A stretch of 28,180 nt of DNA from a virus, in the IMG/VR virus record IMGVR_UViG_3300027622_000002, positions 1-28,180 of that record. One strand, 5' to 3'. This document shows, piece by piece, positions 5,599-28,180 of the stretch. The notes under the pieces are model-generated. The model saw only the letters and a program-made list of their open reading frames with translations, was not told where the DNA came from and did not search any database. A program made the translations under genes and the position numbers. How positions within the stretch are numbered: the first letter of the stretch is position 1; each line of letters begins with the position of its first letter.

Positions 5599-8500
5599 TT
5601 AAGCTAATGCAATAACTCGAAGATCCCTAATCAAAGGTACTCTTGTCGTATTAGCAGATGTCATTACAACTTTGATTGCAAAGGTTTTAAATGAATTATA
5701 AGTAACAAGATTCGAAATATAATTTGCGTTAATACCAGCAGGTGAAAATTCTAATTCTAAATATTCTATATCTGCATCAGATCCAGAAACAGAATTAAGA
5801 TTTGATACTTCACCCATTTCTGTCCAAGGTCTATTATCAAAAGTGTCCGTATCAAATTGTGATAGGACTTTATAATAAACTGTTATAGTACTTCCTGCTT
5901 CTCTGATTGCAGTTAGATGTACATTTAAATCAGTTGCATCAAATCCATCTTTAAGATTAACCCGTCTTGTAATATATCTTGCAATTGAATTTCCACCTTC
6001 CGCATCAGTCTCGTTTGTCGTGTCATTATTTATAAGATTCTCAATAGTAATTACACTATTCCTTGCTGTATCAATAACAGGTGAAATATGTGAATTATTA
6101 CTTGTCATAATTGCTCTTGCTTCATAACTTCCCGCGCCTGTAGTTATTCTTCTTTGTGCAGCTAACTTATGATTTGTTTTTTGAACAACATTCGTATACT
6201 CTGCATCCAAAGTAACCGAACCAACATCAGTAAGTTTTACACCCCAATTAATCGAAGTATTATTCATCACAATCTCTTCAGGTACAATCTGAATAATATC
6301 TGCTTTATATTCTACTGGTGAAGTGCCGTCTCTAAATACTGCATATGAAGTTGTATTAATAGTATAATCAGCTCTGTTAATTTTAAAAGTCAAATCCTGA
6401 TTTTGATTAGGAGTCCATGTAGAAGCATTTTGTGATTTAAATAATGAACCCGCATAGGGTTGTGAAGAAACTTTTCTATTAGTACCAATTATATTTTCAC
6501 CATGCTCAGCAATATATGCTTCGTATTTTAAACTATTACTTAATACAACAATTGCATATTCACCGGGCTGCAAATAAACCAAGCCAGGAAATGTAAACTT
6601 CGTTGCCACGCTTGCATCTTCACTAGTATTAACTAGATCAGGAGTTAAGCTAACATCAGAAAATGGTAAAACACTTTGTGCAGGATATCCATTTAGTGTA
6701 TCCCTAATCTGTAATGAGACTGGCAAACCATCTGAATCTTTTGTTTTGAAATACAAATCAACATCACTAATAAATATACCATCTGGGTATAATGTCTGAT
6801 CAACCAAAAATGTTTCTGCCAGAGGATCAACCCATCCAATAATATTTGATCTTGTAAATGTATTTGATTGTGTTCTGAAGTCTGTTGCTGAACCCATACC
6901 AAATTGTTGTACTCTTGGAACCCTCGTTGCAACAATAACATTTTCTTGTGTTTGTAATAACCCCTGTGCTTGATATGTTACCTCTGCATAGGTTGAAGCA
7001 GTAATTAAATCACCTTGTATATTATCAACTAAAAGAAATTGTCGCTCACCAGTTCTAAATCTTATTGTATTAGAATTTGGAATTGAAAAAGTTAGATTAC
7101 TAATTGAACCAGAATCATCAGTATAGATATCATCAGCCATAACACCACCGGACGGTGTACAATATAACGCCACATCTTCACTATCAAAGAATGGATAAAC
7201 TTTTGTATTAGGTTTCATTCCTGTTACAGATATAATTACATCTCTTGCTCTAATAAAAGGAATGATGGAAACATCAACAACTCTATCACCAATACTATTT
7301 CGAACAGTATCAACACCAGTGATTTCATTTCTGATACCTGTTCGTGTTTGTAGTACCTGATTGATAACTGTTTGATCTCGTACAACAGCTAGACCTGCTC
7401 GTCTGACACTAGATGCAGTAACAGTTTCCCTCCCTGTACCATTAATAGTTTCCCAGTCATTAAATTGTGAACCAAATCCTAAACCAACTAAAGCAGCCCA
7501 GCCATCATTTTCACCTTGTAGATTAACAACAACATCTGGCCTAGTAGTTGTATCAATCCAATTGTCGTTTGGTGGATCTAATTCAACTACTCCGATCCAT
7601 GCCAATACAGCAAAGGGATTAATATTAACAGATTTACTTGCCGTAGGCTGATCAATGAATTCCTTAATAGTATATGGCAAGGTAATTAAATCACCTGTCT
7701 TTTGTACACCAACCGAATCAGGTGCTACCATATATAATAGGTCTGTAAGGTTTGATGCAAAAGGTGGTCTTAATATTTTAGCATCAAAATCAATTGAACA
7801 TTTATAGTCAGGTGATAATATATTACCAATACTATGACCATTAAAACTATCAACTAAAATACCATTTTTAAATCTATCTAATCCAGCCGTATCTTTTATT
7901 ACTAATGATTCGGCTTCCTTTTCAAGTAATGAAAGTGAAGTATAATATTCAACATTACTTAATCGCTTTTCTAATTTACCAATGTCCCTCATCGTATATC
8001 GTTTGTTCTCAATATATAATGCCTGAACATCTTTTGCTTTAAATGTATAAGCAGGAATAAAGATAGTATATAAATCCATTGTTCCATTTAATCGGTATGG
8101 AGGTATTTCATGTAATGATGAAACACCTTGATTTACACCAAATACTTTTTCTCTACTTAAATAAACATTATCTACTCTTGGAAGATAATAACTATAATCA
8201 GCAGACCAGTTAGTATTAGGATATGGCAATTCTATATTTTGTAAAGCAGTTCCACCATCTACCCTTCTCGGTCTAAAATCTACACAATCACGTAGCTCTA
8301 CTGTATCACCAGTTACAGGACTTGTAAATGCTGGAACGGCATCATATCCAACTGCTGAAGTATATGAATCAGTAGAAAGATAACCCACACCTGCATGTGT
8401 AAAATAATCAAACACAATTGTAATTCTTCCAACCGGAGCAGTCTGATCTGCTTTTAATTTTATTCTTCCATGATCATAAAAATTATCTCGTTGACCATCA

Positions 8501-10980
8501 TCTAATTCATATCGTGATGTTATATTTGCATCACCTTCTGCCGCGTTAGTTACGTCTTTACTAAAGCCCGCAATAGCACCGCTAATATTTTCTTCAACAA
8601 AAATTCCAGTCAAAGGAACGTAAGTAATTTCAGTTGGTGCTGTGGCCACATCTCCTTCTATAACAATTCCTGTAGCACCTGATGTTGCACCAGTAATTAT
8701 TTCACCAGCTAGGTATGAATCAATTGTAGAGGTTACTGTTAATGTTGGTAATACTGGATCTATGGCAGGATCTTCAGAATCAAATACTGCATGATATTTA
8801 TAGATATCCGAAATTGCTAAATCATCATATTCTAAATTTGTTGTATTTGGAGTTGCATTGATTAATAGATTACTTGGTACAAGCGTCTTAACCTTTTCCT
8901 GTTTAGAATCAATATTAATTGTTGCAATAATATCTGCTGTAAAACTACTAGAGCCACTATTATCGTTAAAGGTAACAGTAGTATTACTCGGTGCATTAAC
9001 TGTTATGGATTGGCCGCCACCATCAAAGGCAACTAATTCTCCAAATGTTAATCCTGAAGTACCAACAGTTCGTATAGTTGTTGTATAAAATTCTTTTTTA
9101 TTACTATCACTTAAAGCACCACTTCCTAAAAATGTTTCTGTAGAACCACCTGTTGCAATAGTAGCTATACCACCAGCAAAGACTACATTTTCAAAAACTC
9201 TTCTTATTGTATAACTAGTATCAATAACTCCCGTATCATCGCGAATCGTTTTAATTGTTTCTTGAGGAAGTTTAAATACTAAACGATTATCAGATGTCTC
9301 AAACATCTTAGCATCACCTCCAGAAGTACCACCCTCTTTACCGCTATCATCAATATTTGCACCAGCTGATATCGATACAGGAGTTGCTGCTGGATCTACT
9401 GGATCTATAATACTCTCTACATCTGCAAATGTTGCAGAAGCACTAGTTATCTTAATATCATACAAATACATATTAAGAATTTGTACAGTACCAGTACCAG
9501 AAACATAATCAATATTTCTTACCCTCGCTGTACCTATTTTAGTTGATGCATAGGTTGTTGGGTTTGTCAAAGTTGTACTAGCGTGTGCTTGATTATGAAG
9601 ATCAACTTCTGTGTGTTCAGTAATATTAAATAATCCAAGATAGTCTTTTACAACAGCATAATTTCCATATTGCATTAGACGATCAAAATTATTTACATTA
9701 ACATAATCCCTTGCCTTGTCTAATGATAAGTCTTTAGAAATAATAGTTTCAAATTCATGTCCTTCGACAAATGCTTTACCCGGATCAAGTCTAACAGTAA
9801 ATTTTGTCGCATCATCAGGGTCATCCTTTATTTGAATATTAAAAGCCCTTACTGTATAACTTCCAGATTCATCAAACGTTCTTCGTGCAAAGGTTTCTTC
9901 CAATACAGAATAAATTGGAATAGTAATATCCTTTTGTTTAATACCATCCTTGACTCTTAACACTTCATAAAAATCTGTATCGTCAATTGATGTTAAAACT
10001 TTCTTTGATAATGTTAATACAAGCATTAATCTATCAGCACCCGGTGCAGCAAAGTTATGTGAGCCCTGAGCATTATCAAGTAATGTAGTATCTGTGCCTG
10101 AATCAACAACAGTCTCCGCCACACCCACACCAATTTTATATGATGGTGTATTTGTAAACTTATCAAGTATAATAAGTTGTTCTGCTATTTGAATAAAATT
10201 ACCATTGATATAAAATACACCTTCATTAATAGCAGCGCTACTACCTTTACCTGTTGGTGAGGTTTCATATGCTTCTGCCGACACACTTCCATCAACTGCA
10301 CTAATTCTTTCACCGCCAAGAAAAGAAGCAGCTGTTGATAATGTTACTGTACCAAAGGCACCATTACCACCACCCCCCACTATCGAAACAGAAGGCGTTG
10401 AAGTATACCCCGTACCTTTACTTGTAATGTCAACACTGATAACAGAACCATTAGCAATTGTAGCAGTCGCGGTAGCACCTAATCCATCACCACCAGAAAT
10501 AGTAACAGTTGGTATTGTTAAATACCCGGTACCTCCATCATTAACTGCAACACCTTGTACCTGCTCAGTCATGGAACCACCTGTAATATATTTTAAGAAA
10601 AGAACATCTGGATCCCCTGTCGCTGTATCAAGTGCTTCGTGATGTAATACAAGAGCTCTTGTACCGGACTGACTACCAACTACTGTCTTACCTTTAAACA
10701 AAGCTACATCAATATCAACAGCATTAAACTGCTGTTGTAATTTAACATATTCAAAATCTAAATTAAGAGTAGTATCAGCACCAGTAACTTTGGAACCATT
10801 CATAAAAACATGATCACCAAAATTCTTTATTTGGTTTCTTAAGATACTTTGTTCTGTAGTGAGTTCTCTTGCTTGGACTGGTAATGCGGGTTTATAAAGA
10901 ACTTGATGATAGTTCTTGGTCTTATCAAAATCATCAAAGTATGGTGATTGATTTAGATTTATAGTAATTTTATTTGACAT
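5599..10980 (-). CDS. Very large DUF4815-type baseplate/structural protein (1793 aa), gp10 position
   Basis: ATG 10980 follows AGGAAG. The N-terminus (NQSPYFDDFD, YHQVLYKPALPVQARELT, RNQIKNFGDHVFMNGSKV) is characteristic of the DUF4815 family found in T4-like marine phages. Two GxGYxxxPxVxIxGGxG repeats lie at residues 147-215. Later regions are long beta-rich stretches, with a helical patch near 'KDVQALYIENKRYTMRDIGKLEKRLSNVEYYTSLSLLEKEAESL' positions (about codons 975-1020). It occupies the place of T4 genes 9/10 after gene 8. It is probably a peripheral baseplate protein that carries the fibres, but clear gp10 homology is not demonstrated. Confidence 0.85.
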   Translation of the reverse strand: MSNKITINLNQSPYFDDFDKTKNYHQVLYKPALPVQARELTTEQSILRNQIKNFGDHVFMNGSKVTGADTTLNLDFEYVKLQQQFNAVDIDVALFKGKTVVGSQSGTRALVLHHEALDTATGDPDVLFLKYITGGSMTEQVQGVAVNDGGTGYLTIPTVTISGGDGLGATATATIANGSVISVDITSKGTGYTSTPSVSIVGGGGNGAFGTVTLSTAASFLGGERISAVDGSVSAEAYETSPTGKGSSAAINEGVFYINGNFIQIAEQLIILDKFTNTPSYKIGVGVAETVVDSGTDTTLLDNAQGSHNFAAPGADRLMLVLTLSKKVLTSIDDTDFYEVLRVKDGIKQKDITIPIYSVLEETFARRTFDESGSYTVRAFNIQIKDDPDDATKFTVRLDPGKAFVEGHEFETIISKDLSLDKARDYVNVNNFDRLMQYGNYAVVKDYLGLFNITEHTEVDLHNQAHASTTLTNPTTYASTKIGTARVRNIDYVSGTGTVQILNMYLYDIKITSASATFADVESIIDPVDPAATPVSISAGANIDDSGKEGGTSGGDAKMFETSDNRLVFKLPQETIKTIRDDTGVIDTSYTIRRVFENVVFAGGIATIATGGSTETFLGSGALSDSNKKEFYTTTIRTVGTSGLTFGELVAFDGGGQSITVNAPSNTTVTFNDNSGSSSFTADIIATINIDSKQEKVKTLVPSNLLINATPNTTNLEYDDLAISDIYKYHAVFDSEDPAIDPVLPTLTVTSTIDSYLAGEIITGATSGATGIVIEGDVATAPTEITYVPLTGIFVEENISGAIAGFSKDVTNAAEGDANITSRYELDDGQRDNFYDHGRIKLKADQTAPVGRITIVFDYFTHAGVGYLSTDSYTSAVGYDAVPAFTSPVTGDTVELRDCVDFRPRRVDGGTALQNIELPYPNTNWSADYSYYLPRVDNVYLSREKVFGVNQGVSSLHEIPPYRLNGTMDLYTIFIPAYTFKAKDVQALYIENKRYTMRDIGKLEKRLSNVEYYTSLSLLEKEAESLVIKDTAGLDRFKNGILVDSFNGHSIGNILSPDYKCSIDFDAKILRPPFASNLTDLLYMVAPDSVGVQKTGDLITLPYTIKEFIDQPTASKSVNINPFAVLAWIGVVELDPPNDNWIDTTTRPDVVVNLQGENDGWAALVGLGFGSQFNDWETINGTGRETVTASSVRRAGLAVVRDQTVINQVLQTRTGIRNEITGVDTVRNSIGDRVVDVSIIPFIRARDVIISVTGMKPNTKVYPFFDSEDVALYCTPSGGVMADDIYTDDSGSISNLTFSIPNSNTIRFRTGERQFLLVDNIQGDLITASTYAEVTYQAQGLLQTQENVIVATRVPRVQQFGMGSATDFRTQSNTFTRSNIIGWVDPLAETFLVDQTLYPDGIFISDVDLYFKTKDSDGLPVSLQIRDTLNGYPAQSVLPFSDVSLTPDLVNTSEDASVATKFTFPGLVYLQPGEYAIVVLSNSLKYEAYIAEHGENIIGTNRKVSSQPYAGSLFKSQNASTWTPNQNQDLTFKINRADYTINTTSYAVFRDGTSPVEYKADIIQIVPEEIVMNNTSINWGVKLTDVGSVTLDAEYTNVVQKTNHKLAAQRRITTGAGSYEARAIMTSNNSHISPVIDTARNSVITIENLINNDTTNETDAEGGNSIARYITRRVNLKDGFDATDLNVHLTAIREAGSTITVYYKVLSQFDTDTFDNRPWTEMGEVSNLNSVSGSDADIEYLELEFSPAGINANYISNLVTYNSFKTFAIKVVMTSANTTRVPLIRDLRVIALA
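10336..10542 (-). repeat. Two GTGY beta-repeat units in the 1793-aa protein
   Basis: Codons 147-215 encode DGGTGYLTIPTVTISGG followed by a related unit, SKGTGYTSTPSVSIVGG, each ending in a G/A-rich strand. Similar units occur in the two upstream baseplate genes. Confidence 0.75.
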
Positions 10981-10998
10981 ATCTTCCTATCTCGTTAT

Positions 10999-12339
10999 TT
11001 AGAATTCAGCAACAATTTTTATATCTTCTGTTGAATCAGATTGTCTATGAATCGGTGCTCTGAATTCGGTATAAATTATACTTCCACTATCTTCATCTAT
11101 TTCATTACTATCATAAGTAGTACCTGTTGCAGGAGTCGGCGGAGTAGTATCTCCAGTCGTCGGATTAACAAGTAAATGTACTTTTCTAAAATGATTCCCA
11201 ACCGGAAAATCATTTCCGTCATTACCTATTAGTCTGACATTCAACATTACAAACGCACCACCTAATTCAACCACTGCATTTGAACCATGTCCACCTTGAG
11301 GACCAATCCTTCCTATAATTGCTGCAGCCGTACCACCACCACTTGAAACTGTAGTAACCACTGAACGATATCCAGTTCCTTCACTTACCATATCAATTCT
11401 AGTAATAGCACCTGTATCAACTCCTGATACCCTTGCAACCGCACCATTGCCATCAGACGATGCAAGCGTCACAGCAGGTGAAACTTCATAAGTACTAACT
11501 GATGTTGGAATATTAATCCAATCACTATTAACAGTTGCTTCTTTAGTTACGTGATTATATCCAGTAATAGTTTTAATCTCACCCTCACCAGGCCCTGTCA
11601 AAATAAAAACTACCATATCATTATAATAATCAACTGTAGTAGTATTTGCATTTGTATCTAAAGTAATTGTCGTTGCTGTACCACCAGCTGCTGTACCATT
11701 ATTCCATTTATAATTAGCACCACCAGACAGTACATCGATATGTTCTAATGCTCCATCAACTGCAGTTGTTTCAACATCTGCTTGATCTGTACCAACAGCG
11801 CCGGGTGCATGTACGGGAATCCAATCAGTAGTAATAAATTTCAACACATCTGCTTGCGCTACTTCATACATAAACTTCCATCTATATCCATCAGGTTGTG
11901 TATCAATAATATCGGTACTTACTCCAGTAGGTTCTACTGTTGATGGTGACCCATCATTATTTGAAATACATTTATATACCCGATAAGCTTCAGTGAATAC
12001 AAAAAAGTTTGTATCAATGATATCATCCTGTAGATGATTATACTCATCATAAGTTTCCCCTGATACCCAATCTACTCTTTTAAGAACATGGGAAACGTCT
12101 CCAATACTAATAAGTTTTGAAGCAATCCCTGAATCGTGATGAATGAATGGTGAGACGGATGTATCAATAGGAATAGGAACATTAGTATCAGAGTATGATC
12201 CGTCTTCATATTCCCCAGAACTGTTTCCAGACCACGGAGAATTTTTACCAATCATTAAATAGATATTAGCTGTACCAAAACTAGCAATGAAATTGTCCGC
12301 GTTAAATTTGCGAAATGTGTTATTGATTATTGCACTCAT
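10999..12339 (-). CDS. 8: Baseplate wedge protein gp8-like (446 aa)
   Basis: ATG 12339 has GGAGG at a good distance. The start MSAIINNTFRKFNADNFIASF, followed by YLMIGKNSPW, matches gp8-type wedge proteins. Further family marks are FTEAYRVYKCISNN (about 115-128), GYRWKFMYEV (151-160), DVLKFITTDWIPV (164-176) and the C-terminal PQGGHGSNAVVELGG (about 347-361). T4 gp8 is 334 aa; this protein is longer because a beta insertion with GxGY-type repeats lies in the middle (about 205-345). Gene order after gp6 and the gp7-position protein supports the call. It forms part of the inner-to-peripheral baseplate wedge. Confidence 0.85.
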   Translation of the reverse strand: MSAIINNTFRKFNADNFIASFGTANIYLMIGKNSPWSGNSSGEYEDGSYSDTNVPIPIDTSVSPFIHHDSGIASKLISIGDVSHVLKRVDWVSGETYDEYNHLQDDIIDTNFFVFTEAYRVYKCISNNDGSPSTVEPTGVSTDIIDTQPDGYRWKFMYEVAQADVLKFITTDWIPVHAPGAVGTDQADVETTAVDGALEHIDVLSGGANYKWNNGTAAGGTATTITLDTNANTTTVDYYNDMVVFILTGPGEGEIKTITGYNHVTKEATVNSDWINIPTSVSTYEVSPAVTLASSDGNGAVARVSGVDTGAITRIDMVSEGTGYRSVVTTVSSGGGTAAAIIGRIGPQGGHGSNAVVELGGAFVMLNVRLIGNDGNDFPVGNHFRKVHLLVNPTTGDTTPPTPATGTTYDSNEIDEDSGSIIYTEFRAPIHRQSDSTEDIKIVAEF

Positions 12340-12379
12340 ACTCTATTTCCTCCAACCTTTTCGTTTAATTTGTTATAGT

Positions 12380-12387
12380 TATTTATA
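12380..12387 (-). promoter_or_regulatory. T4-type late promoter box (TATAAATA) before gp8
   Basis: The minus strand reads TATAAATA in the 83-nt gap, 41 nt upstream of the gp8 ATG. A TTGACA hexamer lies 14 nt upstream of it, too close for a good sigma70 pair. The noncoding position and the late gene downstream favour a real late promoter. Confidence 0.65.
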
Positions 12388-12422
12388 ATACTTTTTTAAC
12401 ATGTCAATATATATTTTACGAC

Positions 12423-14507
12423 TTATACGTCTGGTGGTGGTAATTCTGAATTTTCATTACCAATCAAATATTGTGTGATTGTAGCATTAGTAAGATTCCT
12501 TGATTTCAAACCACGAAACCATGTATAATCAACTATCCTATCCTTAGCAAAACAACCAATGCCCGTACCTGATTGTAGGCCTACACCAATCACCTGACTA
12601 AAGCCACCTTGCTTCTTAAACTTTGATGATTCCAGTCCCCTCTTTAATGGACCCAATCTTAATTGCGTTGTATTTTCTGTTGATCCAGTAAGCTCACCAT
12701 AGTCATCCTGATAGTCATCATTCTCTGTGATCTCACCATAATTCTCACTTGAGGTAACCTCATCTTTAACTAAAAGCCAATCTTCATAATCACCTAAGGT
12801 CAATAGATATTGTATTGCTAAATCTATTTCAAGTGTGAAACATTTAGTAGGAGCAACATAAAAAGAACTTTGTATTGTTAATCCATAATCCTCTTGTTCA
12901 GATATAGTCTCTCCTAATAAGCCCCAATCTTCAGGAGGACCATGTCCATCTGGATCTACTGTTTCTAATTCCGTTATCGAACGATAATCTAAATCATCTA
13001 AGAATATAAGTACTCTTTCACCCTCACAAGAATCTACTTTCAGATCAACTACAACAGGAGGTGTGATTGTCCCCATATGAAAAATAATAGTATAGTGTCG
13101 TCTTTCAGGTATACCCGTAATGCTTAATGTCGTAGCAATATTTGTAAGGAACTGCATATTGCCAAACATAGCAAGACCAGCTGGATGTGCTGTTCTCTTT
13201 ACAACATCTTTCCATAATGAAATAGGATGACTGGCTGTAATTACATAAGAAAATAATTGATAGTAATAACTATCTTGAATATATTTTGTAGAGGAAAGAA
13301 ATCCATCATCACCAATAAAAGATTTATTGTGTTCGTTTTCATAACTAGAAACATCTGCAGTTGCAGATGCAGTGCCATCACCATACCCAGAAAAATCTAA
13401 TGTTGGATTAGATGTATAACCATAACCATTATTAACAATCTTTAATGCTTTAACACCACCAATATTTTCACCGACTAATGTTATAGATAAATTAGATCCA
13501 CTACCACCACCAGACACTGTTGGCATAGCTATGTAACCGCGACCGGGACTTTCTATTGTAATGGATGTAACTCCTCCTGAGCCATCAACTTCTCTTACTA
13601 ATAGACTAACAGTTCTTGCATCAATATCCAACGCGTCTGTATTATCAATATTTATTTTATCACCAACAACATATCCGCTACCACCATTATTAATTGTAAC
13701 AGATTTAATATAACCAGTAGTTAAATCATCAATAGAAATAAAAGCACCAGCGCCAGACGTACCACCACCACTCATAGGAATAACTGTACCTTTCATATAA
13801 TTATTACCTGTAGAGGTAATAGTAGTATCAGTAACCATTCCACCTAATACAAATGTTAATGTTCCATCAGTGATTGTTTCAAATGGTTGAAAGGTAGCAT
13901 TAACATTAGAAAGAAAAATAGTGGATACCATGAATGCACCAATATGTTCTTTTACTATTGTCTCAGCAAGTGCCGTAGCACCAGAAGTAACACCAGTAAT
14001 TTTTTTACCTAACAAATCAAAAACTGCATCAGACCCACTTGTATCAACTACACGAATAATTCTATTCTTAGTATACTTGCCATCCGATACGCGAAGCATA
14101 TCTTTATTAGGATAATAAAAATCTATTTCCTCTTTATAAAGTAATCTAAAAAGAAATTGAAATGCTTTCTCACTACCCTTAGCTCTATAAAAATCTCTAA
14201 GATGTTTTAATACGAATGGTTTATTGGCATTAGCAAAAATAGCTTCAGGAAGCTCTTTGCCAAATTGCTTCTTAAAATAATTTAAAAACTCATCAGTTGT
14301 TTTATCTAGATTACTATACTTAGTAAGATTGCCAACAATCTCATAAGGTTTTCCTTGCTCCTCCATGTATTCATAATATGCTTCAAGGAAAGCAATGAAG
14401 GTGCCGTGGGATTGCTTTACAAAATTAGGTAGTTGACCTTCTACCTTTACACTTATTCTTTCATCCAGTTTAGGATGGATTGGTTGATTGGGAGATACTA
14501 AGGCCAT
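12423..14507 (-). CDS. Baseplate wedge protein at the gp7 position (694 aa)
   Basis: The N-terminal helical part contains LPNFVKQSHGTFIAFLEAYYEYMEE (about 26-50) and LRDFYRAKGSEKAFQFLFR (about 103-121), hallmarks of a large baseplate family in T4-like marine phages. Residues 230-385 hold four GxGY beta-repeat units. Residues 403-450 carry the conserved STKYIQDSYYYQLFSYVI and RTAHPAGLAMFGN segments. The C-terminal 230 residues contain repeated EDYG/ENYG motifs. Lying between gp6 and gp8, it corresponds to T4 gp7 (1032 aa) by synteny. Sequence relation to T4 gp7 itself is not claimed. The start lies 1 nt past the gp6 stop and has a weak ribosome site. Confidence 0.8.
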   Translation of the reverse strand: MALVSPNQPIHPKLDERISVKVEGQLPNFVKQSHGTFIAFLEAYYEYMEEQGKPYEIVGNLTKYSNLDKTTDEFLNYFKKQFGKELPEAIFANANKPFVLKHLRDFYRAKGSEKAFQFLFRLLYKEEIDFYYPNKDMLRVSDGKYTKNRIIRVVDTSGSDAVFDLLGKKITGVTSGATALAETIVKEHIGAFMVSTIFLSNVNATFQPFETITDGTLTFVLGGMVTDTTITSTGNNYMKGTVIPMSGGGTSGAGAFISIDDLTTGYIKSVTINNGGSGYVVGDKINIDNTDALDIDARTVSLLVREVDGSGGVTSITIESPGRGYIAMPTVSGGGSGSNLSITLVGENIGGVKALKIVNNGYGYTSNPTLDFSGYGDGTASATADVSSYENEHNKSFIGDDGFLSSTKYIQDSYYYQLFSYVITASHPISLWKDVVKRTAHPAGLAMFGNMQFLTNIATTLSITGIPERRHYTIIFHMGTITPPVVVDLKVDSCEGERVLIFLDDLDYRSITELETVDPDGHGPPEDWGLLGETISEQEDYGLTIQSSFYVAPTKCFTLEIDLAIQYLLTLGDYEDWLLVKDEVTSSENYGEITENDDYQDDYGELTGSTENTTQLRLGPLKRGLESSKFKKQGGFSQVIGVGLQSGTGIGCFAKDRIVDYTWFRGLKSRNLTNATITQYLIGNENSELPPPDV

Positions 14508-14508
14508 A

Positions 14509-16419
14509 TTAGATTGTCTCTGCTACCATATTAATAACAATTGCTTCTGTGTCATTAACATCATAAGTTAATATCTGTTCTCTTAAAGGAGTAATGTCAC
14601 TATTATTATATGTTGGTGTTACAGTTATTTTAATATAATCATTACCATCTGTAATAGTGACTGGTCGGAAACTATTCAATATAACCTTTCCTGTAGCATA
14701 ATCAATAGTTCCATAATCAGTTGAACCATCCGGTAAAATAAATAAATCTAACAATTGACTTTCAGTGTCATGTACATCTACAGCATAATGATATTCGCCA
14801 GTATGTAAAACACTAGATTCTCTAATATGTACGGGTCCTGTCCAAACCCCACCACTATTTAATTTAACTGCTTTAATATTTCCAATAGTATCATCAACCA
14901 AAGTATATGTATATCCATCAGTAGCAATAAAAGAACTACTAATAAGATTCCCATGCTGCAAGGCATTATTAAAATTCAAAGTATATGTAATTGGTGTATC
15001 TAATGTTTCAATAGCAATCCTTTGCTGATACCTCATAGTTGTTCTATTATTTCTTATGCTATCATTTGTATTATCAATATCCTGTGTCAGCATAGAATAT
15101 CTAAACTTCTGATCAAATTTTTCTAAATTCGTTTGATGATAATTCTGTATAGAAGTATTGATATTAGTCTTCAATGTATTTTCATCAGTTAGATTTGTAA
15201 CAGGATCATAGTTCACAGTAGTATTTAATAGTAAGTAAATAAATATCGGATCAATGATTACAGGTATAACCGTAACAACATTTGATTGTTTAAGTATACT
15301 TTTTTCAATTGCTGCCTTTGCAACATTAGTAAAGACATTATTCCCCGAAGGCTTTACTGCAATAAAAACTTTTCCATATTGAACCGGATCTGCATCCTCA
15401 CCACCATATGCCGTAATAGATTCAATGTCTGGACGCTGCTCTAAAAGAATAGCTTTATAATCATCCCTCGTAGTTGCCCTATTTTGTGCTTGATATAATT
15501 TTGGAGCTTGGAATTTTAAAGAGGTAGTTGTTTGAATATCAGCACCACCTGTCGCCTCGGTATTTGTGGTTAAAATATAATCCGCAGATGTTAATGTGGC
15601 TACCGAACCAACAGCAGTAAATACACTTGCCTTGTTTGCAAGTGTCCCACCAGTAACAATATATTCAATAAAGATAATATTGCCATCCGATAGTTGTTTG
15701 CCTACAGCACCATCGCCAAATGTGATTTCATATTTTCTTCCTTCTATTTCTTGTAGAAAGAAAACCTTATCCGTTCCCTTGATAGTTGTAACATCAATTG
15801 CATTGCCATCCGTATAGATATTAGTATCTGTATCAGAATCAGAATTCTGAACAACTACACTAATAGTAGAAGCATCTACATTTACATTTGGAATAATAAA
15901 CCGTTGAGCAGTATCCTCTGAATCAACCGTATATGATTTATTTAATATCTTTCCTTCTTTAATCTCGACACCCGTTGCCACATAAGAACCATCACCCGCT
16001 CGTGGAACATTTGTAGTTATATTAGTTACAAACGTATAACTTGTTCCATCAATGCTAGTAGTAAATTTTGTATCCTTTGCAATCGTAAGTGACGTTGGTG
16101 CTCCTGATGGTGTGAATGTAAAATTAAGTTCTGCCGTAGGTGTCTTAACTGATGTTGGGGTTACACCTAAATGCTTTGCATGTGATACAACTGAATCCCT
16201 TAAAGAGGAACTATCCATAAACATTTCATTACCAAGCATGTTGGCATAGTATCCAGTATAGTGTGTATTGTAAGCTAATATATCAATCAACACACTCATA
16301 CCAGAACCTTCAAAATCATAATCCTGAAAATCATCCTGTGCTGATAGATAAGCTTTTAAATTAGATTTGATCTCATCAAATTCTAAGTCAGTTACTTTAA
16401 TCTTATTTGAAGTTGCCAT
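14509..16419 (-). CDS. 6: Baseplate wedge protein gp6 (636 aa, J-like)
   Basis: ATG 16419 is preceded by GAGAGG. The N-terminus ITVTDLEF-type start (KIKVTDLEFDEIKSNLKAYL), then DYDFEGSGMSVLIDILAYNTHY and ANMLGNEMFMDSSSLRDSVVSHAKHLG (about residues 36-85), are diagnostic of gp6/baseplate J-like proteins. RATTRDDYKAILLEQRPDIESITAYGGED (about 318-346) is the second conserved block. Its length is close to T4 gp6 (660 aa). It forms the iris-like inner ring of the baseplate together with gp25 and gp7. It lies 1 nt downstream of gp25. Confidence 0.93.
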   Translation of the reverse strand: MATSNKIKVTDLEFDEIKSNLKAYLSAQDDFQDYDFEGSGMSVLIDILAYNTHYTGYYANMLGNEMFMDSSSLRDSVVSHAKHLGVTPTSVKTPTAELNFTFTPSGAPTSLTIAKDTKFTTSIDGTSYTFVTNITTNVPRAGDGSYVATGVEIKEGKILNKSYTVDSEDTAQRFIIPNVNVDASTISVVVQNSDSDTDTNIYTDGNAIDVTTIKGTDKVFFLQEIEGRKYEITFGDGAVGKQLSDGNIIFIEYIVTGGTLANKASVFTAVGSVATLTSADYILTTNTEATGGADIQTTTSLKFQAPKLYQAQNRATTRDDYKAILLEQRPDIESITAYGGEDADPVQYGKVFIAVKPSGNNVFTNVAKAAIEKSILKQSNVVTVIPVIIDPIFIYLLLNTTVNYDPVTNLTDENTLKTNINTSIQNYHQTNLEKFDQKFRYSMLTQDIDNTNDSIRNNRTTMRYQQRIAIETLDTPITYTLNFNNALQHGNLISSSFIATDGYTYTLVDDTIGNIKAVKLNSGGVWTGPVHIRESSVLHTGEYHYAVDVHDTESQLLDLFILPDGSTDYGTIDYATGKVILNSFRPVTITDGNDYIKITVTPTYNNSDITPLREQILTYDVNDTEAIVINMVAETI

Positions 16420-24457: not shown

Positions 24458-24756
24458 TTAGTGTAATGCTTTAATGCCTTTATAAGTTTTATCCGCTTAT
24501 TCTTCGCCAGTTTAAACTTACGGGGCATCCACATAGGGAGTACCCCTTGAGTTATATCTGATATATCACGGATAATTCGTTTCTTTATTATATCGGGTTG
24601 ATGGTCTATGATAGATAAGTCCATATTCCCGTCTAAAATACCACGAATCATATACTGGATCGGATCCACATTCCGTATAGACCTACCGGAGAATCCGACC
24701 TCAGTTACGTAGTTATAGCTATCTAAACCTCGCATGTAGTTAGTATAAGTTTTCAC
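24454..24756 (-). CDS. Protein of unknown function with GTG start (100 aa)
   Basis: The start is GTG 24756, overlapping the TGA of the upstream gene (GTGA). The protein is mixed alpha/beta, with a basic C-terminal helix (PRKFKLAKNKRIKLIKALKHY) that could bind nucleic acid or membrane phosphates. There is no signal peptide. The first internal ATG (eighth codon) is an alternative start. No motif was recognised. Confidence 0.65.
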   Translation of the reverse strand: MKTYTNYMRGLDSYNYVTEVGFSGRSIRNVDPIQYMIRGILDGNMDLSIIDHQPDIIKKRIIRDISDITQGVLPMWMPRKFKLAKNKRIKLIKALKHYTK

Positions 24757-24911
24757 TTAACCACTTCCACTACGCCAGTAGTTAGACCCAATAGAACTGA
24801 GAAATAATCCCAGTAATACCATACAGATCCAGCTAGGAATACCCATACTGGCCATAGTGGCCATCCTACAGAATAGGCTCCCGGAACGTAGTTTTTTGGT
24901 AACATGCCCAT
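24753..24911 (-). CDS. Small Trp-rich membrane protein (52 aa)
   Basis: ATG 24911 has AAGGAG 7 nt upstream. The protein (MGMLPKNYVPGAYSVGWPLW...) holds five tryptophans and a hydrophobic span over about residues 18-47, ending in VVEVVK. Its stop overlaps the next gene's GTG. It is packed between the cNMP-binding gene and the 100-aa gene. Likely inner-membrane; role unknown. Confidence 0.65.
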   Translation of the reverse strand: MGMLPKNYVPGAYSVGWPLWPVWVFLAGSVWYYWDYFSVLLGLTTGVVEVVK

Positions 24912-24926
24912 AATACTTCTCCTTTT

Positions 24927-25262
24927 TTAAGTTGCTTTACCTATTTTCTCCAACATCTCTCCCATACGAGTACATATGATCTTCAATATAGGTATGAGAG
25001 CCTTGGGATTATGCTCTATGAATAACGGCGCATCTTCAGGTTTAATAACATATAGATGACAATCAGTATTGGCTTTAACCGTAGCAGTTCTAGGTATATG
25101 TTGTAACCATCCTATCTCGCCGAAGATCGAATGTTTCTCTAATATACATAATTGTATATCATTCTTCAGGACTTCAACTTCGCCTGACTCAATGATATAG
25201 GCTTCCCTATCGGTATCGCCATCTTTAATAATTATATCACCCTTCTTATAAAACTTTATCAT
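24927..25262 (-). CDS. Stand-alone cyclic-nucleotide-binding domain protein (111 aa)
   Basis: ATG 25262 follows GAGGTG. The whole protein is one CAP_ED/cNMP-binding beta-roll: KKGDIIIKDGDTDREAYII at the start, ESGEVEV at about 25-31, and the phosphate-binding cassette FGEIGWLQHIPRTATV (47-62), with E49 and R58 at the canonical nine-residue distance. The C-terminal helices follow, but there is no helix-turn-helix, channel or kinase domain. Family members bind cAMP or cGMP; here the domain could sense or sequester the host's cyclic nucleotides. Function beyond binding is inference. Confidence 0.85.
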   Translation of the reverse strand: MIKFYKKGDIIIKDGDTDREAYIIESGEVEVLKNDIQLCILEKHSIFGEIGWLQHIPRTATVKANTDCHLYVIKPEDAPLFIEHNPKALIPILKIICTRMGEMLEKIGKAT

Positions 25263-25270
25263 AATTCACC

Positions 25271-25873
25271 TCATCCCATAGTCCAAAATGACTCCTTACG
25301 AGTAACGGACGTGACTAAATGTACACGATCCTGTTCACCGCCATTAAATTGGCTATGATAAAATATAGTATTCGTGTACCATGCTCTACCTATTGGTAGA
25401 TGTTTGACTTCATCTTCAATAACCATCTTGGCTCCTATATTGGTAACAATAGGTACATGAAGTCGTGGCTCTGGATCTCTATGCCAAGATAAACAATTCC
25501 TCGGAACGGATTTAATCAATCGTACCCTACCCAATTGACCCTCATATTGTTGACTAACAAATTCTCGTAGGGTATCATAGACTATCCTGAAATAGGTATG
25601 ATTTATCTCGGGTATAAACGTACAATAATCCCGTTCATCTAATTCCTGTTGACGTATTACCTCTTGTCCATCTACCATAGTTCGGTATATACCACCACTT
25701 CCCTCATAGAAACAATCAGGAGCTGATTGACCCTCTCTCTTGGTCAAGCATATCTGATGGTATTTCTTATGTATAGATTCTTTCGGCCATGGAGCAATCT
25801 CTTCTACCTGTTTAAGAGCCTCAACCAATTTTAATTCATCGAATATAACCGGTAGTTTTGTAAAGTATTTCAA
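25271..25873 (-). CDS. Aspartyl/asparaginyl beta-hydroxylase-like Fe/2OG protein (200 aa)
   Basis: The start appears to be TTG 25873, overlapping the endolysin stop (TTGA), with GGGGA upstream; no in-frame ATG occurs before residue 66. LSWHRDPEPRLHVPI (128-142) gives H131-x-D133, and DRVHLV (182-187) gives the distal H185, while GRAWYTNTIFYHSQFNGG fits the Asp/Asn beta-hydroxylase cupin pattern. It is therefore a third Fe(II)/2OG-type enzyme. The substrate may be a protein side chain or small molecule and cannot be read here. Confidence 0.75.
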   Translation of the reverse strand: MKYFTKLPVIFDELKLVEALKQVEEIAPWPKESIHKKYHQICLTKREGQSAPDCFYEGSGGIYRTMVDGQEVIRQQELDERDYCTFIPEINHTYFRIVYDTLREFVSQQYEGQLGRVRLIKSVPRNCLSWHRDPEPRLHVPIVTNIGAKMVIEDEVKHLPIGRAWYTNTIFYHSQFNGGEQDRVHLVTSVTRKESFWTMG

Positions 25874-26238
25874 TATAAGAACATCCCCTGTGTTTTATCG
25901 TAGTCTACGTCTACATGAATAAACTCACTATGAAGTCCTATTCGGGTAAACTCTCCATCCCTCAATAATCGCTTTACCAATTCTAATCGGGATACCATAT
26001 CCTCACAATATATATCTGCGGCTAATCCTGTGATATGACTACTAGTATCACTACTACCTATTGCCCTATTATGAGATAAGCAACGAATACCACTCGTGAT
26101 CTTCATAGGCTTTCCATAGTATTCACGAACAGTCTCTAATTCATACACTAATTTCTCACTAATCACTACATCACCATTACCACATCCACATTTGCAATCG
26201 AATTCTTCCTTAGTAAAATGCTCGGTTAATTTAGTCAT
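25870..26238 (-). CDS. Endolysin, peptidase M15 family (122 aa)
   Basis: A zinc peptidase of the M15 (VanY / D-Ala-D-Ala or L-Ala-D-Glu) type. The N-terminus FTKEEFDCKCGCG is family-typical; KITSGIRCLSHNRAIG (46-61) precedes SSHITGLAADI with zinc ligands H68 and D75, and EFIHVDVD supplies H108. The length suits a single-domain peptidoglycan hydrolase. There is no signal peptide, so release needs a holin. The upstream genes encode membrane proteins (TM, TM plus coiled coil) that may be lysis partners. The ATG overlaps the upstream TGA. Confidence 0.88.
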   Translation of the reverse strand: MTKLTEHFTKEEFDCKCGCGNGDVVISEKLVYELETVREYYGKPMKITSGIRCLSHNRAIGSSDTSSHITGLAADIYCEDMVSRLELVKRLLRDGEFTRIGLHSEFIHVDVDYDKTQGMFLY

Positions 26239-26474
26239 TTTTTTTTACCTGATGGTCTATTGGGTACCTCTGGATCATTAAATGGTTTATCCAGAGATGG
26301 TGTAAATGGTGTACCTTCTTGATAATTAGGTTCCACATCTTCCCCTGTCCATTGTTCTTTCTCAGTTTGAGCCCATTTATCTAACCAAGGTCCTACAATA
26401 GACGTCGGAGAAAACAATATATATGTAAGTATCCCCACTAATACCAATAGTAATGCTACCATGGCAGGTTCCAT
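26235..26474 (-). CDS. Small membrane-anchored protein beside the endolysin (79 aa)
   Basis: The start overlaps the upstream TAA (TAATGG). Residues 4-22 (AMVALLLVLVGILTYILF) form an N-terminal transmembrane segment; the rest is a hydrophilic, proline-rich tail ending in SGKKK. The layout, short anchor plus soluble extension directly before the endolysin, would suit a holin-like or spanin-like lysis partner, but the Pro-rich tail is not diagnostic. Confidence 0.65.
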   Translation of the reverse strand: MEPAMVALLLVLVGILTYILFSPTSIVGPWLDKWAQTEKEQWTGEDVEPNYQEGTPFTPSLDKPFNDPEVPNRPSGKKK

Positions 26475-27031
26475 TACTTTGTTTTGCTCATGGCAGCTAA
26501 AGGATTCTCTAATGCTTTAGTAATCTTCTTATCTAATTTCTTCTCGAGATTCTCTATCTGTGTATCTACCTTAGTCAATTTATCGTCCCACCTTTTAGAG
26601 GTTTGTGTGATTAAATCCCTTACTTCATTCTCTGCGTTTCTCATAGCTGTTCTAGTCTCTAAGCCATCTTCTCTTGATCGCTTATCAATATTAGCTATCT
26701 GATCATGTTGTGAATTAACCTCATTCTTTATATCTGTACGTATATCCCTCGCTGTTTCCTGTGCAGCATTTACAAGTTCCTTTAATGCATCAACCTCAGT
26801 ACTTAGAACTTTTAATTCTTTATTTAATTTCGTATCAAATACCTCTAATCGTGTATTAAATCCGGATAGATCAGGTTCCTTGTACTCGCTTACCAGTTTT
26901 TCCATATCCTCATATCGCTTAAACAATTCAAATCCACCCCATAATCCAGCAACAATTGTACCTATCAATGGAAATATAAGTATCCACTTAGTACCGGATA
27001 TATGAAGTCCCTTATATTCTAGTTCAGCCAC
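26474..27031 (-). CDS. Membrane-anchored coiled-coil protein (185 aa), possible lysis-associated
   Basis: The start is GTG 27031 inside the end of the HAD gene, with AGGGG at a good distance. Residues 16-36 (WILIFPLIGTIVAGLWGGFEL) are one transmembrane span, followed by about 140 residues of charged coiled coil with regular heptads (LEVFDTKLNKELKVLSTEVDALKELV, VDTQIENLEKKLDKKI). Similar anchor-plus-coil proteins occur near endolysins in T4-like marine phages. An i-spanin or holin-related role is plausible but unproven. Confidence 0.7.
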   Translation of the reverse strand: MAELEYKGLHISGTKWILIFPLIGTIVAGLWGGFELFKRYEDMEKLVSEYKEPDLSGFNTRLEVFDTKLNKELKVLSTEVDALKELVNAAQETARDIRTDIKNEVNSQHDQIANIDKRSREDGLETRTAMRNAENEVRDLITQTSKRWDDKLTKVDTQIENLEKKLDKKITKALENPLAAMSKTK

Positions 27032-27542
27032 TTATCATCCCCTTTAATTCTTTAATAGTCTTAATCGCGGATTTATGTACTATACCAAGACCACCAGCTG
27101 ATTCAAAATCCCTTGTATTCCTTATATGGTCATCAATCAATATATGATTAGGTGCAGCAAACTTCTTCTTATCCTTTCTCTGTACTATATTAACTTTAGA
27201 GGGTGATGGTTTACAATGTTTCTTAATCCATGCTTTCTTTCCTTCCATAACCGCTTTATCATTACGACAAATGGATGGACAAGCTGAGAGTATCTCTATA
27301 TTATATTGACTTATGTATTTCCATAGGGTCTTTTGATCAGGTAAAGGATCTAATGCTACCCACCATCCCTTAGAAGTACCAGCATCAGTTAATAATACCT
27401 TATCTATATCGCCTTGTTCAAACTCTTTCTTTCCTAGATGTCTCGCGATACCGCCTAAGAAATTAGTCAATACACCATCCATATCACAAAAAATAGTGAT
27501 ATCATCCTTCTTAAGTTTTTTAAATTCTTTAAATGTTATCAT
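27024..27542 (-). CDS. 5'(3')-deoxyribonucleotidase-like HAD hydrolase (172 aa)
   Basis: Start ATG 27542 is preferred because the upstream 42-aa gene ends 1 nt before it; a longer frame to 27581 lies inside that gene. MITFKEFKKLKKDDITIFCDMDGVLTNF carries HAD motif I (D20-x-D22-G-V-L); ILSACP holds the motif II Ser (S86); ILIDDHIRNTRDFESAGG gives the motif IV acidic pair (D137, D138). This fits the NT5C-type phosphatase that removes phosphate from dNMPs. Phage versions may tune nucleotide pools. Substrate assignment is by family. Confidence 0.82.
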   Translation of the reverse strand: MITFKEFKKLKKDDITIFCDMDGVLTNFLGGIARHLGKKEFEQGDIDKVLLTDAGTSKGWWVALDPLPDQKTLWKYISQYNIEILSACPSICRNDKAVMEGKKAWIKKHCKPSPSKVNIVQRKDKKKFAAPNHILIDDHIRNTRDFESAGGLGIVHKSAIKTIKELKGMISG

Positions 27543-27543
27543 A

Positions 27544-27672
27544 TTAACTAAATTTCTTATTAACCCATTTATAAAATACATACAATCCCATCAATAATAT
27601 GATATAGATGATACCATCAAACCACGGAATTTCATTTAGAAAATCAGCGGTATCACCAGTTAACTCAACCAT
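27544..27672 (-). CDS. Small single-span membrane protein (42 aa)
   Basis: The frame runs from ATG 27672 to TAA 27544. An acidic head (MVELTGDTADFLNEIPWFDG) precedes a hydrophobic span (IIYIILLMGLYVF) and a basic end (KWVNKKFS), which suggests N-out/C-in topology. It overlaps the end of the preceding 49-aa gene and abuts the HAD gene. Consistent packing and topology support it. Function unknown; it is one of several tiny membrane genes in this operon. Confidence 0.65.
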   Translation of the reverse strand: MVELTGDTADFLNEIPWFDGIIYIILLMGLYVFYKWVNKKFS

Positions 27673-27809: not shown

Positions 27810-27916
27810 AGTCTTACTCCATATAATTTAGCCATCCGGTTATAATAAGTTTCGTGTATAAACGATTCATCAGGAAAGTGGTGAAGTTTTAGTACGTTCT
27901 GCAATTTGTTCTTCAT
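27806..27916 (-). CDS. Short overlapping gene (36 aa) at the end of the NifU-like gene
   Basis: ATG 27916 to TGA 27806 encodes a peptide starting MKNKLQNVLKLHHFPDESF and ending NRMAKLYGVRL. It overlaps the last 47 nt of the NifU-like frame in another frame and its stop overlaps the next ATG (ATGA). The amino-acid sequence looks like real protein and occupies the gap before the next gene. The ribosome site (GGTGG) is weak. Alternatively it is the C-terminus of a frameshifted NifU-like product. Confidence 0.5.
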   Translation of the reverse strand: MKNKLQNVLKLHHFPDESFIHETYYNRMAKLYGVRL

Positions 27917-28180
27917 ATGTTTTACCACCAAACGGATGCTGTGTACCAAATCGATTAGTCATTTCATCTTCCACTTCTTTCATACCATAAGCATTGGTTG
28001 GTATAACAACAGCCTCTGGAAATACATTCTGTTGTATTGCACGTTCTATTCCTGCTAATGTTGCACCAGCTGATGATGGACAATGACCACATGCTCCTTG
28101 AAATGAAATAACTACTTCATTACCCTTAACTAAATCCAATTCAATATCACCACCATCACTCACAAGAGCAGGACGAATTG
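27870..28180 (-). CDS. NifU C-terminal-domain Fe-S protein, 5' end cut by window edge
   Basis: The frame stays open to the right edge. Its first visible residues IRPALVSDGGDIELDLVKGN are the conserved beginning of the NifU C-terminal (Nfu) domain, so the true start lies outside; a GTG at 28163 falls inside the motif and is not the start. GACGHCPSS supplies the CxxC pair that holds a transient [4Fe-4S] cluster. A 40-residue tail (MKEVEDEMTNRFG...) follows the domain. Such proteins carry clusters to target enzymes; in a phage it may support Fe-S enzymes during infection. Confidence 0.88.
   Translation of the reverse strand, partial: IRPALVSDGGDIELDLVKGNEVVISFQGACGHCPSSAGATLAGIERAIQQNVFPEAVVIPTNAYGMKEVEDEMTNRFGTQHPFGGKTYEEQIAERTKTSPLS

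Follow-up and report, generated by a model that had tools for sequence, protein, structure and literature searches.

We found that the viral stretch analysed here (the window, a linear IMG/VR record of 28,180 bases) encodes a free-standing cyclic-nucleotide-binding domain (CNBD), the product of 24927..25262 on the minus strand and hereafter the window protein, and that this CNBD represents a family spread across unrelated phages and is not a singleton. The best reading of the protein is a receptor that either interferes with host cyclic-nucleotide/CRP-type signalling or reads it. In its specific form, to which we assign a probability of roughly two in five, it would be a minimal cyclic mononucleotide (cNMP) receptor that dimerises via its C-helix and disturbs host cyclic-nucleotide signalling; this is the simplest job for a protein that combines an intact pocket with a pairing helix of the CRP type and has no output domain. 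A receptor-only protein of 111 aa, retained in two or more unrelated phage lineages, provides a compact handle on cNMP signalling as a phage target, and to our knowledge host cAMP/cGMP signalling has rarely been regarded as a direct target of lytic phages. The protein is informative either way, whether it points to CRP interference, to a new anti-defence class or to control of phage-borne metabolism.

When searching Pfam-A, PF00027 (cNMP_binding) was the sole family in the window protein, matching residues 3-77 (E 5.9e-18, 65.1 bits, against a curated cut-off of 27.5 bits). Residues 78-111 form helices B and C of the CNBD in the structural model, which leaves no space for a second domain. The sequence-only reading had described a CNBD without an effector domain in a phage, and this agrees with what we observe, namely PF00027 alone, a length of 111 aa and T4-type baseplate genes in the same record. 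It had also called the phosphate-binding cassette intact, and the window sequence bears this out: the cassette residues F47-G48-E49...P57-R58-T59-A60-T61 are present, including the two residues, E49 and R58, that it had quoted. A chance open reading frame is ruled out by the 65-bit profile match, the Shine-Dalgarno-like sequence and purifying selection, and a truncated CRP pseudogene by the end point common to unrelated phages and by the low dN/dS. A scan for promoters and terminators gave counts close to those in shuffled sequence. The features of the gene, its product and its neighbours are collected in the table.

Table. Coordinates of the CNBD gene, the parts of its product and the neighbouring genes in the window.
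Feature	Position	Strand	Basis or remark
Free-standing CNBD protein	24927..25262	-	ATG start, 111 aa; PF00027 65.1 bits; AlphaFold2 (AF2) model with CNBD fold
Phosphate-binding cassette FGEIGWLQHIPRTATV, residues 47-62 including E49 and R58	25077..25124	-	Sequence
Long C-helix, residues 86-110	24933..25007	-	DSSP of model; gap-free against CRP 110-134, dimerisation helix
Shine-Dalgarno-like GAGGTG of the CNBD gene	25267..25272	-	Sequence; 4 bases ahead of ATG, overlaps the stop codon of the upstream (hydroxylase) gene
Aspartyl/asparaginyl beta-hydroxylase-like, directly upstream of CNBD	25271..25873	-	PF05118 36.7 bits
M15 peptidase, endolysin family	25870..26238	-	PF08291; phrog_894 endolysin
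Upstream neighbour, function unknown	26474..27031	-	66-69% identical homologs
5'(3')-deoxyribonucleotidase-like	27024..27581	-	PF06941; phrog_2643
NifU-like iron-sulphur scaffold domain, truncated at the end of the window	27870..28180	-	PF01106 50.6 bits; 94% identity with the copy in L087
Downstream neighbour, 52 aa, hydrophobic, own Shine-Dalgarno-like AAGGAG	24753..24911	-	No Pfam match

Next, we investigated the conservation of the pocket. Scans with cassette patterns select for parts of FGE...PRTAT, so that conservation in those sets proves little alone, and to avoid selecting on the cassette we used the motif [DE]AYII[LED]xGE, which covers the N-terminal half only. The G-E...R-[ST]-A residues were kept in all 31 loci recovered by this cassette-independent motif. 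Within sub-groups, dN/dS ranged from 0.039 to 0.195 in the 25 computable pairs out of 28, and the family is under purifying selection. Together, the 31 cassettes and the low dN/dS indicate that the pocket is maintained and in use, and we consider it likely that the window protein binds a cyclic nucleotide. At position 59, where the window protein has Thr, its three closest new relatives have Ser, as does CRP; in eukaryotic CNBDs, a Thr after the cassette Arg favours cGMP.

Upon aligning the window protein with CRP, we observed that the similarity extends beyond the pocket into the C-helix. The NCBIfam CRP model aligned residues 3-109 of the window protein with its positions 26-138, at 29 bits, which is under its cut-off. 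From Asn85-Pro86 onwards the alignment to E. coli CRP Asn109-Pro110 is free of gaps, and the last residue is equivalent to CRP Ala135. The phage protein has in common with CRP the beta-roll, the phosphate-binding cassette and a C-helix matching CRP 110-135. Its reading frame stops shortly ahead of the point equivalent to the CRP hinge. In contrast to CRP, the phage protein has neither the leading helix ahead of the beta-roll, as seen in the alignment, nor the helix-turn-helix of the CRP/FNR C-terminus, as seen from the end of the reading frame and the lack of any further Pfam domain. The anatomy is that of the N-terminal domain of CRP, C-helix included. Given the C-helix homology and the stop at the Ala135 equivalent, the window protein corresponds to the half of CRP that senses and pairs, and it has no output part.

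The C-helix carries marks of its own in the phage family. Among 14 non-redundant members, a stripe formed by residues 93, 96, 100, 104, 107 and 110 is mostly hydrophobic to the helix end, and Pro91 is invariant (14/14). We regard pairing of the receptor through this helix as rather probable; the stripe could alternatively be a lid or a docking site for a different partner. At the CRP-equivalent positions of this helix, 21 of the 22 aligned rows were readable, and in these the CRP Arg123 position is Arg or Lys throughout, the Ser128 position is Leu (16 rows) or Met (5 rows), and the Thr127 position is Thr in 14. The window protein has Met103/Leu104 at CRP 127/128, so that neither of the Thr127/Ser128 base contacts is provided, and since this pair is not conserved in the family, CRP-like adenine reading is not predicted. 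The uracil-reading Asn of PycTIR was found in 0 of the 21 readable rows. According to the available text of PMC11224242, Ser128 of CRP reads adenine, Asn143 of PsPycTIR, at the equivalent position, reads uracil, and Glu146 of XC_0249 reads guanine. For the phage family, going by the residues seen there, base specificity cannot be inferred from the base-reading position.

The AlphaFold2 model, built with 22 family members as input, consists of a beta-roll and a single long C-helix (mean pLDDT 85.5, pTM 0.69). By ten-residue block, pLDDT is at least 86 in the beta-roll, 63-75 in helix B and the start of helix C, and about 84 in most of the remaining helix C; a rerun with closer relatives (85.0) did not raise the confidence. 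Using Foldseek, 554 PDB chains matched the window model at E <= 0.001. With VIA-align 2 the model superposed on PKA RI-alpha (3pna_A; Z 12.9, rmsd 2.9 A, 89 residues) and on cAMP-bound Bd1971 (6hq5_A; Z 11.9, rmsd 0.8 A, 74 residues, 35% identity), and because VIA-align 2 rows less than 1 Z unit apart are ties, the comparison identifies the fold but does not single out a nearest family. The best PDB sequence matches were apicomplexan PKG and PKA regulatory subunits (5dyk_A, 109.5 bits summed over domains), whose CNBDs have the PRTA-type cassette in common with the phage protein, whereas the latter is a single domain with no kinase or docking part. Similarly, the beta-roll superposes on that of Bd1971, a Bdellovibrio EAL enzyme with an N-terminal CNBD, but the EAL output domain is found in Bd1971 only; the CNBD of Bd1971 forms a dimer around the C-helix, as described in the accessible part of PMC12750041. 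In BFVD, the sole structure at E <= 0.001 was the Crp of an uncultured Caudovirales phage (A0A6J5RKH2), which at 216 aa has about the length of whole CRP and is 17% identical to the window protein. None of the 50 matches listed in the structure searches was a Tad or Acb entry, which excludes nothing. Identity with the anti-Pycsar nuclease Apyc1 was also considered and rejected: Apyc1 has a metallo-beta-lactamase fold with HxHxDH (PMC9117128, available portion), a motif absent from the window protein, whose fold is that of a CNBD.

Besides the window, 42 IMG/VR contigs carry relatives of the CNBD gene. A scan with the window protein itself returned one contig, 99% identical, and an alignment scan 23 relatives. 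The cassette-pattern scan yielded 27 loci, comprising 22 CNBDs and five unrelated loci (L003, L008, L009, L017 and L023) that encode a 441-aa protein, named terminase-like by eye, in which an FGEIGWF stretch mimics the cassette. With a wider version of the pattern, 40 stretches were recovered, of which 37 proved to be CNBDs and three were chance hits. The C-helix pattern yielded one new CNBD fragment (L078) together with a chance match (L079), and the N-terminal-half scan added three contigs. Among the 42 contigs, L078 holds a C-terminal fragment only and L031 is known from a tblastn match only. Complete frames span 109-148 aa, with the exception of L055, an 85-aa frame that stops before the helices. 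Each of the 24 records searched, all of them among the 42, has exactly one CNBD, and all 22 members scanned match PF00027 and no other Pfam family. Among GenBank phages, the window protein had no match at E up to 10 and the L005 CNBD a single one at E 0.8, and none of the PHROGs covers the window protein. In open-licence PMC papers, searches for published phage or marine-phage CNBDs, CNBD auxiliary genes, stand-alone CNBDs and phage CNBD/Crp found nothing on such a family. Stand-alone CNBDs are known in bacteria, so the architecture itself is not new; the phage family, set apart by its C-helix marks, appears to be undescribed.

Upon partitioning the records by phage type, we observed that the CNBD occurs in two or more mutually unrelated lineages of phages. 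T4-type baseplate genes (phrog_219, phrog_438 and phrog_17744) lie at 10999-16419 of the window, and the gp6-type protein encoded there is closest to Pelagibacter phage HTVC008M (38.5% identity). A gp6-type baseplate gene is present in 9 of 28 CNBD records, at about 9 kb from the CNBD in the window, G004, G005, G007 and G013 and at 20-32 kb in G011, G014 and G027. The contig behind L088, of 59.8 kb, carries further T4 genes, and Gp23 (PF07068) occurs in 1 of 24 records; the T4 portal family PF07230 had no match in the records and none in the controls either. T7-type relatives are marked by an RNA polymerase gene, found in 5 of 24 records, and the L040 polymerase is closest to those of Pelagibacter phages (about 36%). 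In L032, L040 and L041, the CNBD immediately precedes the RNA polymerase gene or is separated from it by one gene; in L034 it likewise lies upstream of the polymerase, with the terminase gene on one side and a ferredoxin gene on the other. This early-region position in T7-type relatives agrees with disturbing host cNMP signalling. On one contig (L076), an SU10-type portal gene adjoins the CNBD. A class III cyclase was absent from all 28 records, which are fragments, and this fits a host-made ligand.

Under the preferred reading, a host 3',5'-cyclic mononucleotide, with cAMP or cGMP as the first candidates, would be bound by the beta-roll pocket, and the C-helix would pair the receptor into a dimer. 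The receptor may then hold the ligand, pair with a host CRP/FNR-type subunit to give a mixed dimer missing one DNA-binding half, or do both, with the result that host cyclic-nucleotide signalling would be disturbed during infection. Host CRP-type signalling as the target is a tentative assignment. A broader version, in which the proteins form a phage-specific, dominant-negative receptor family consisting of the sensing-and-pairing half of CRP or of Pycsar receptors and bring about early host cNMP shut-off in T4-type and T7-type phages through dead mixed dimers and ligand holding, is doubtful.

A different role would be that of an anti-defence sponge or decoy, which soaks up the cUMP or cCMP of Pycsar or, being a receptor-domain copy that lacks the TIR, poisons the assembly of PycTIR filaments. 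PycTIR, the Pycsar receptor, combines a CNBD with a TIR domain, must oligomerise through the CNBD and has G-E...R ligand residues in common with the phage protein (PMC11224242, as far as the accessible text goes). A phage CNBD with a C-helix and no N-terminal extension has a fitting anatomy for a poison subunit, and the early position of the gene in T7-type relatives would also suit anti-defence. The PADLOC PycTIR profile matches the CNBD part of the window protein with 36 bits and that of L050 with 56 bits, but it also matches in seven of the 14 genomes used as controls, E. coli among them, and ordinary Wallbacteria CNBDs score higher; we therefore rejected this match as evidence and treat it as a generic CNBD match. 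Compared with PycTIR as described in the same available text, the phage protein is without the TIR domain, the 21-30 aa N-terminal extension and the uracil-reading Asn. That Asn, the cUMP-reading residue N143 of PsPycTIR at the CRP S128 position, is replaced by Leu or Met in every readable row. A scan of four neighbours in the window recognised no defence or anti-defence gene, and the one at 26474-27031 gave weak coiled-coil-like matches only. A dedicated anti-defence sponge is thus possible, without specific support, and we consider it rather improbable. Of the functions suggested by the sequence-only reading, interference with CRP-type regulation fits the anatomy of the protein, a CRP N-terminal domain with its C-helix, while the countering of defences loses ground, the cUMP-reading Asn being absent and the PycTIR match generic. 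In several T4-type phages, moreover, the gene is surrounded by iron-sulphur and folate genes and not by known anti-defence genes. We judge it improbable that the gene is an ordinary auxiliary gene, that is, a captured bacterial stand-alone CNBD keeping an unknown host function. Such bacterial proteins do exist (e.g. WP_001093846.1, a single CNBD of about 120 aa), with 119 aa in Leptospira, 154 aa in Sinorhizobium and a 114-aa frame in Wallbacteria. However, the Leptospira, Sinorhizobium and L044 Wallbacteria proteins lack two marks of the phage family, Pro91 and the Leu/Met at CRP S128, and the C-helix of bacterial stand-alone CNBDs, unlike that of the phage family, is polar at the base-reading positions and has no Pro91. 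Additionally, a scan of 84,980 species genomes found one relative only, a weak result because the phage-derived patterns used were narrow.

The genomic surroundings bear on the remaining alternative, a metabolic regulator in which the CNBD would be a cNMP-sensing subunit tuning adjoining phage iron-sulphur, folate or 2-oxoacid genes. Of the 39 records with a CNBD, 9 have a NifU-like domain, compared to 0 of 5 control records, and the NifU-like gene directly adjoins the CNBD in four (G002, G005, G007 and G013); IscA-like Fe-S_biosyn domains occur in 5 of 39. A ferredoxin gene lies directly downstream of the CNBD in L034, and in L087 genes for PFOR alpha, two TPP-binding subunits, ferredoxin, NifU and IscA form one run ahead of it. 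A 5-formyltetrahydrofolate (5-FTHF) cyclo-ligase gene is found by the CNBD in L064, directly downstream and with a pterin dehydratase gene close by, and in L088. Against this, no neighbour is constant across lineages, 30 of the 39 records show no NifU, some records are near relatives, and the controls number only five. Moreover, in the available text of PMC8940887, nifU is present in all samples and ferredoxin-type domains are reported among ocean viruses, so that such genes are common in these viruses generally. The iron-sulphur neighbourhood may reflect a functional link or the ordinary auxiliary genes of ocean T4-type phages, five controls being too few to decide, and we regard a metabolic regulator as unlikely compared with a receptor that disturbs host cyclic-nucleotide signalling.

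In the window, the CNBD gene belongs to a tightly packed minus-strand run (approximately 23.2-28.2 kb) of NifU-like, deoxyribonucleotidase, unknown, 79-aa protein, M15 endolysin, beta-hydroxylase, CNBD, small and phrog_2954-type genes. The 26474..27031 neighbour has homologs adjacent or close to the CNBD in L087, L088 and L091, and a 29.8% identical homolog is present in Pelagibacter phage HTVC115P, whereas the beta-hydroxylase-like gene has no homolog adjoining the CNBD in L087 or L088. The 220-aa protein encoded at 23423-24085 matches phrog_2954 and phrog_3531, labelled ferrochelatase in PHROGs, a label that is doubtful since there is no Pfam match.

Several side observations concern metabolic genes in the related contigs. 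Positions 1947-6108 of L107 (3300032073_003525) correspond to 107-4268 of L087 and encode PFOR alpha (POR_N, PFOR_II), two TPP-binding subunits, a 4Fe-4S ferredoxin, a NifU-like and an IscA-like protein; the contig also has a T4-type exonuclease gene (phrog_107). Among GenBank phages, the L107 PFOR alpha had three weak matches only, all in unannotated faecal contigs. In the T4-type L088, genes for an aldehyde dehydrogenase (550 bits) and the 5-FTHF cyclo-ligase lie near the CNBD, at 6750-8249 and 1509-2021. Finally, the T4-type viral contig L063 carries an FTR1-type iron permease gene at 10385-11041, three genes from the CNBD.
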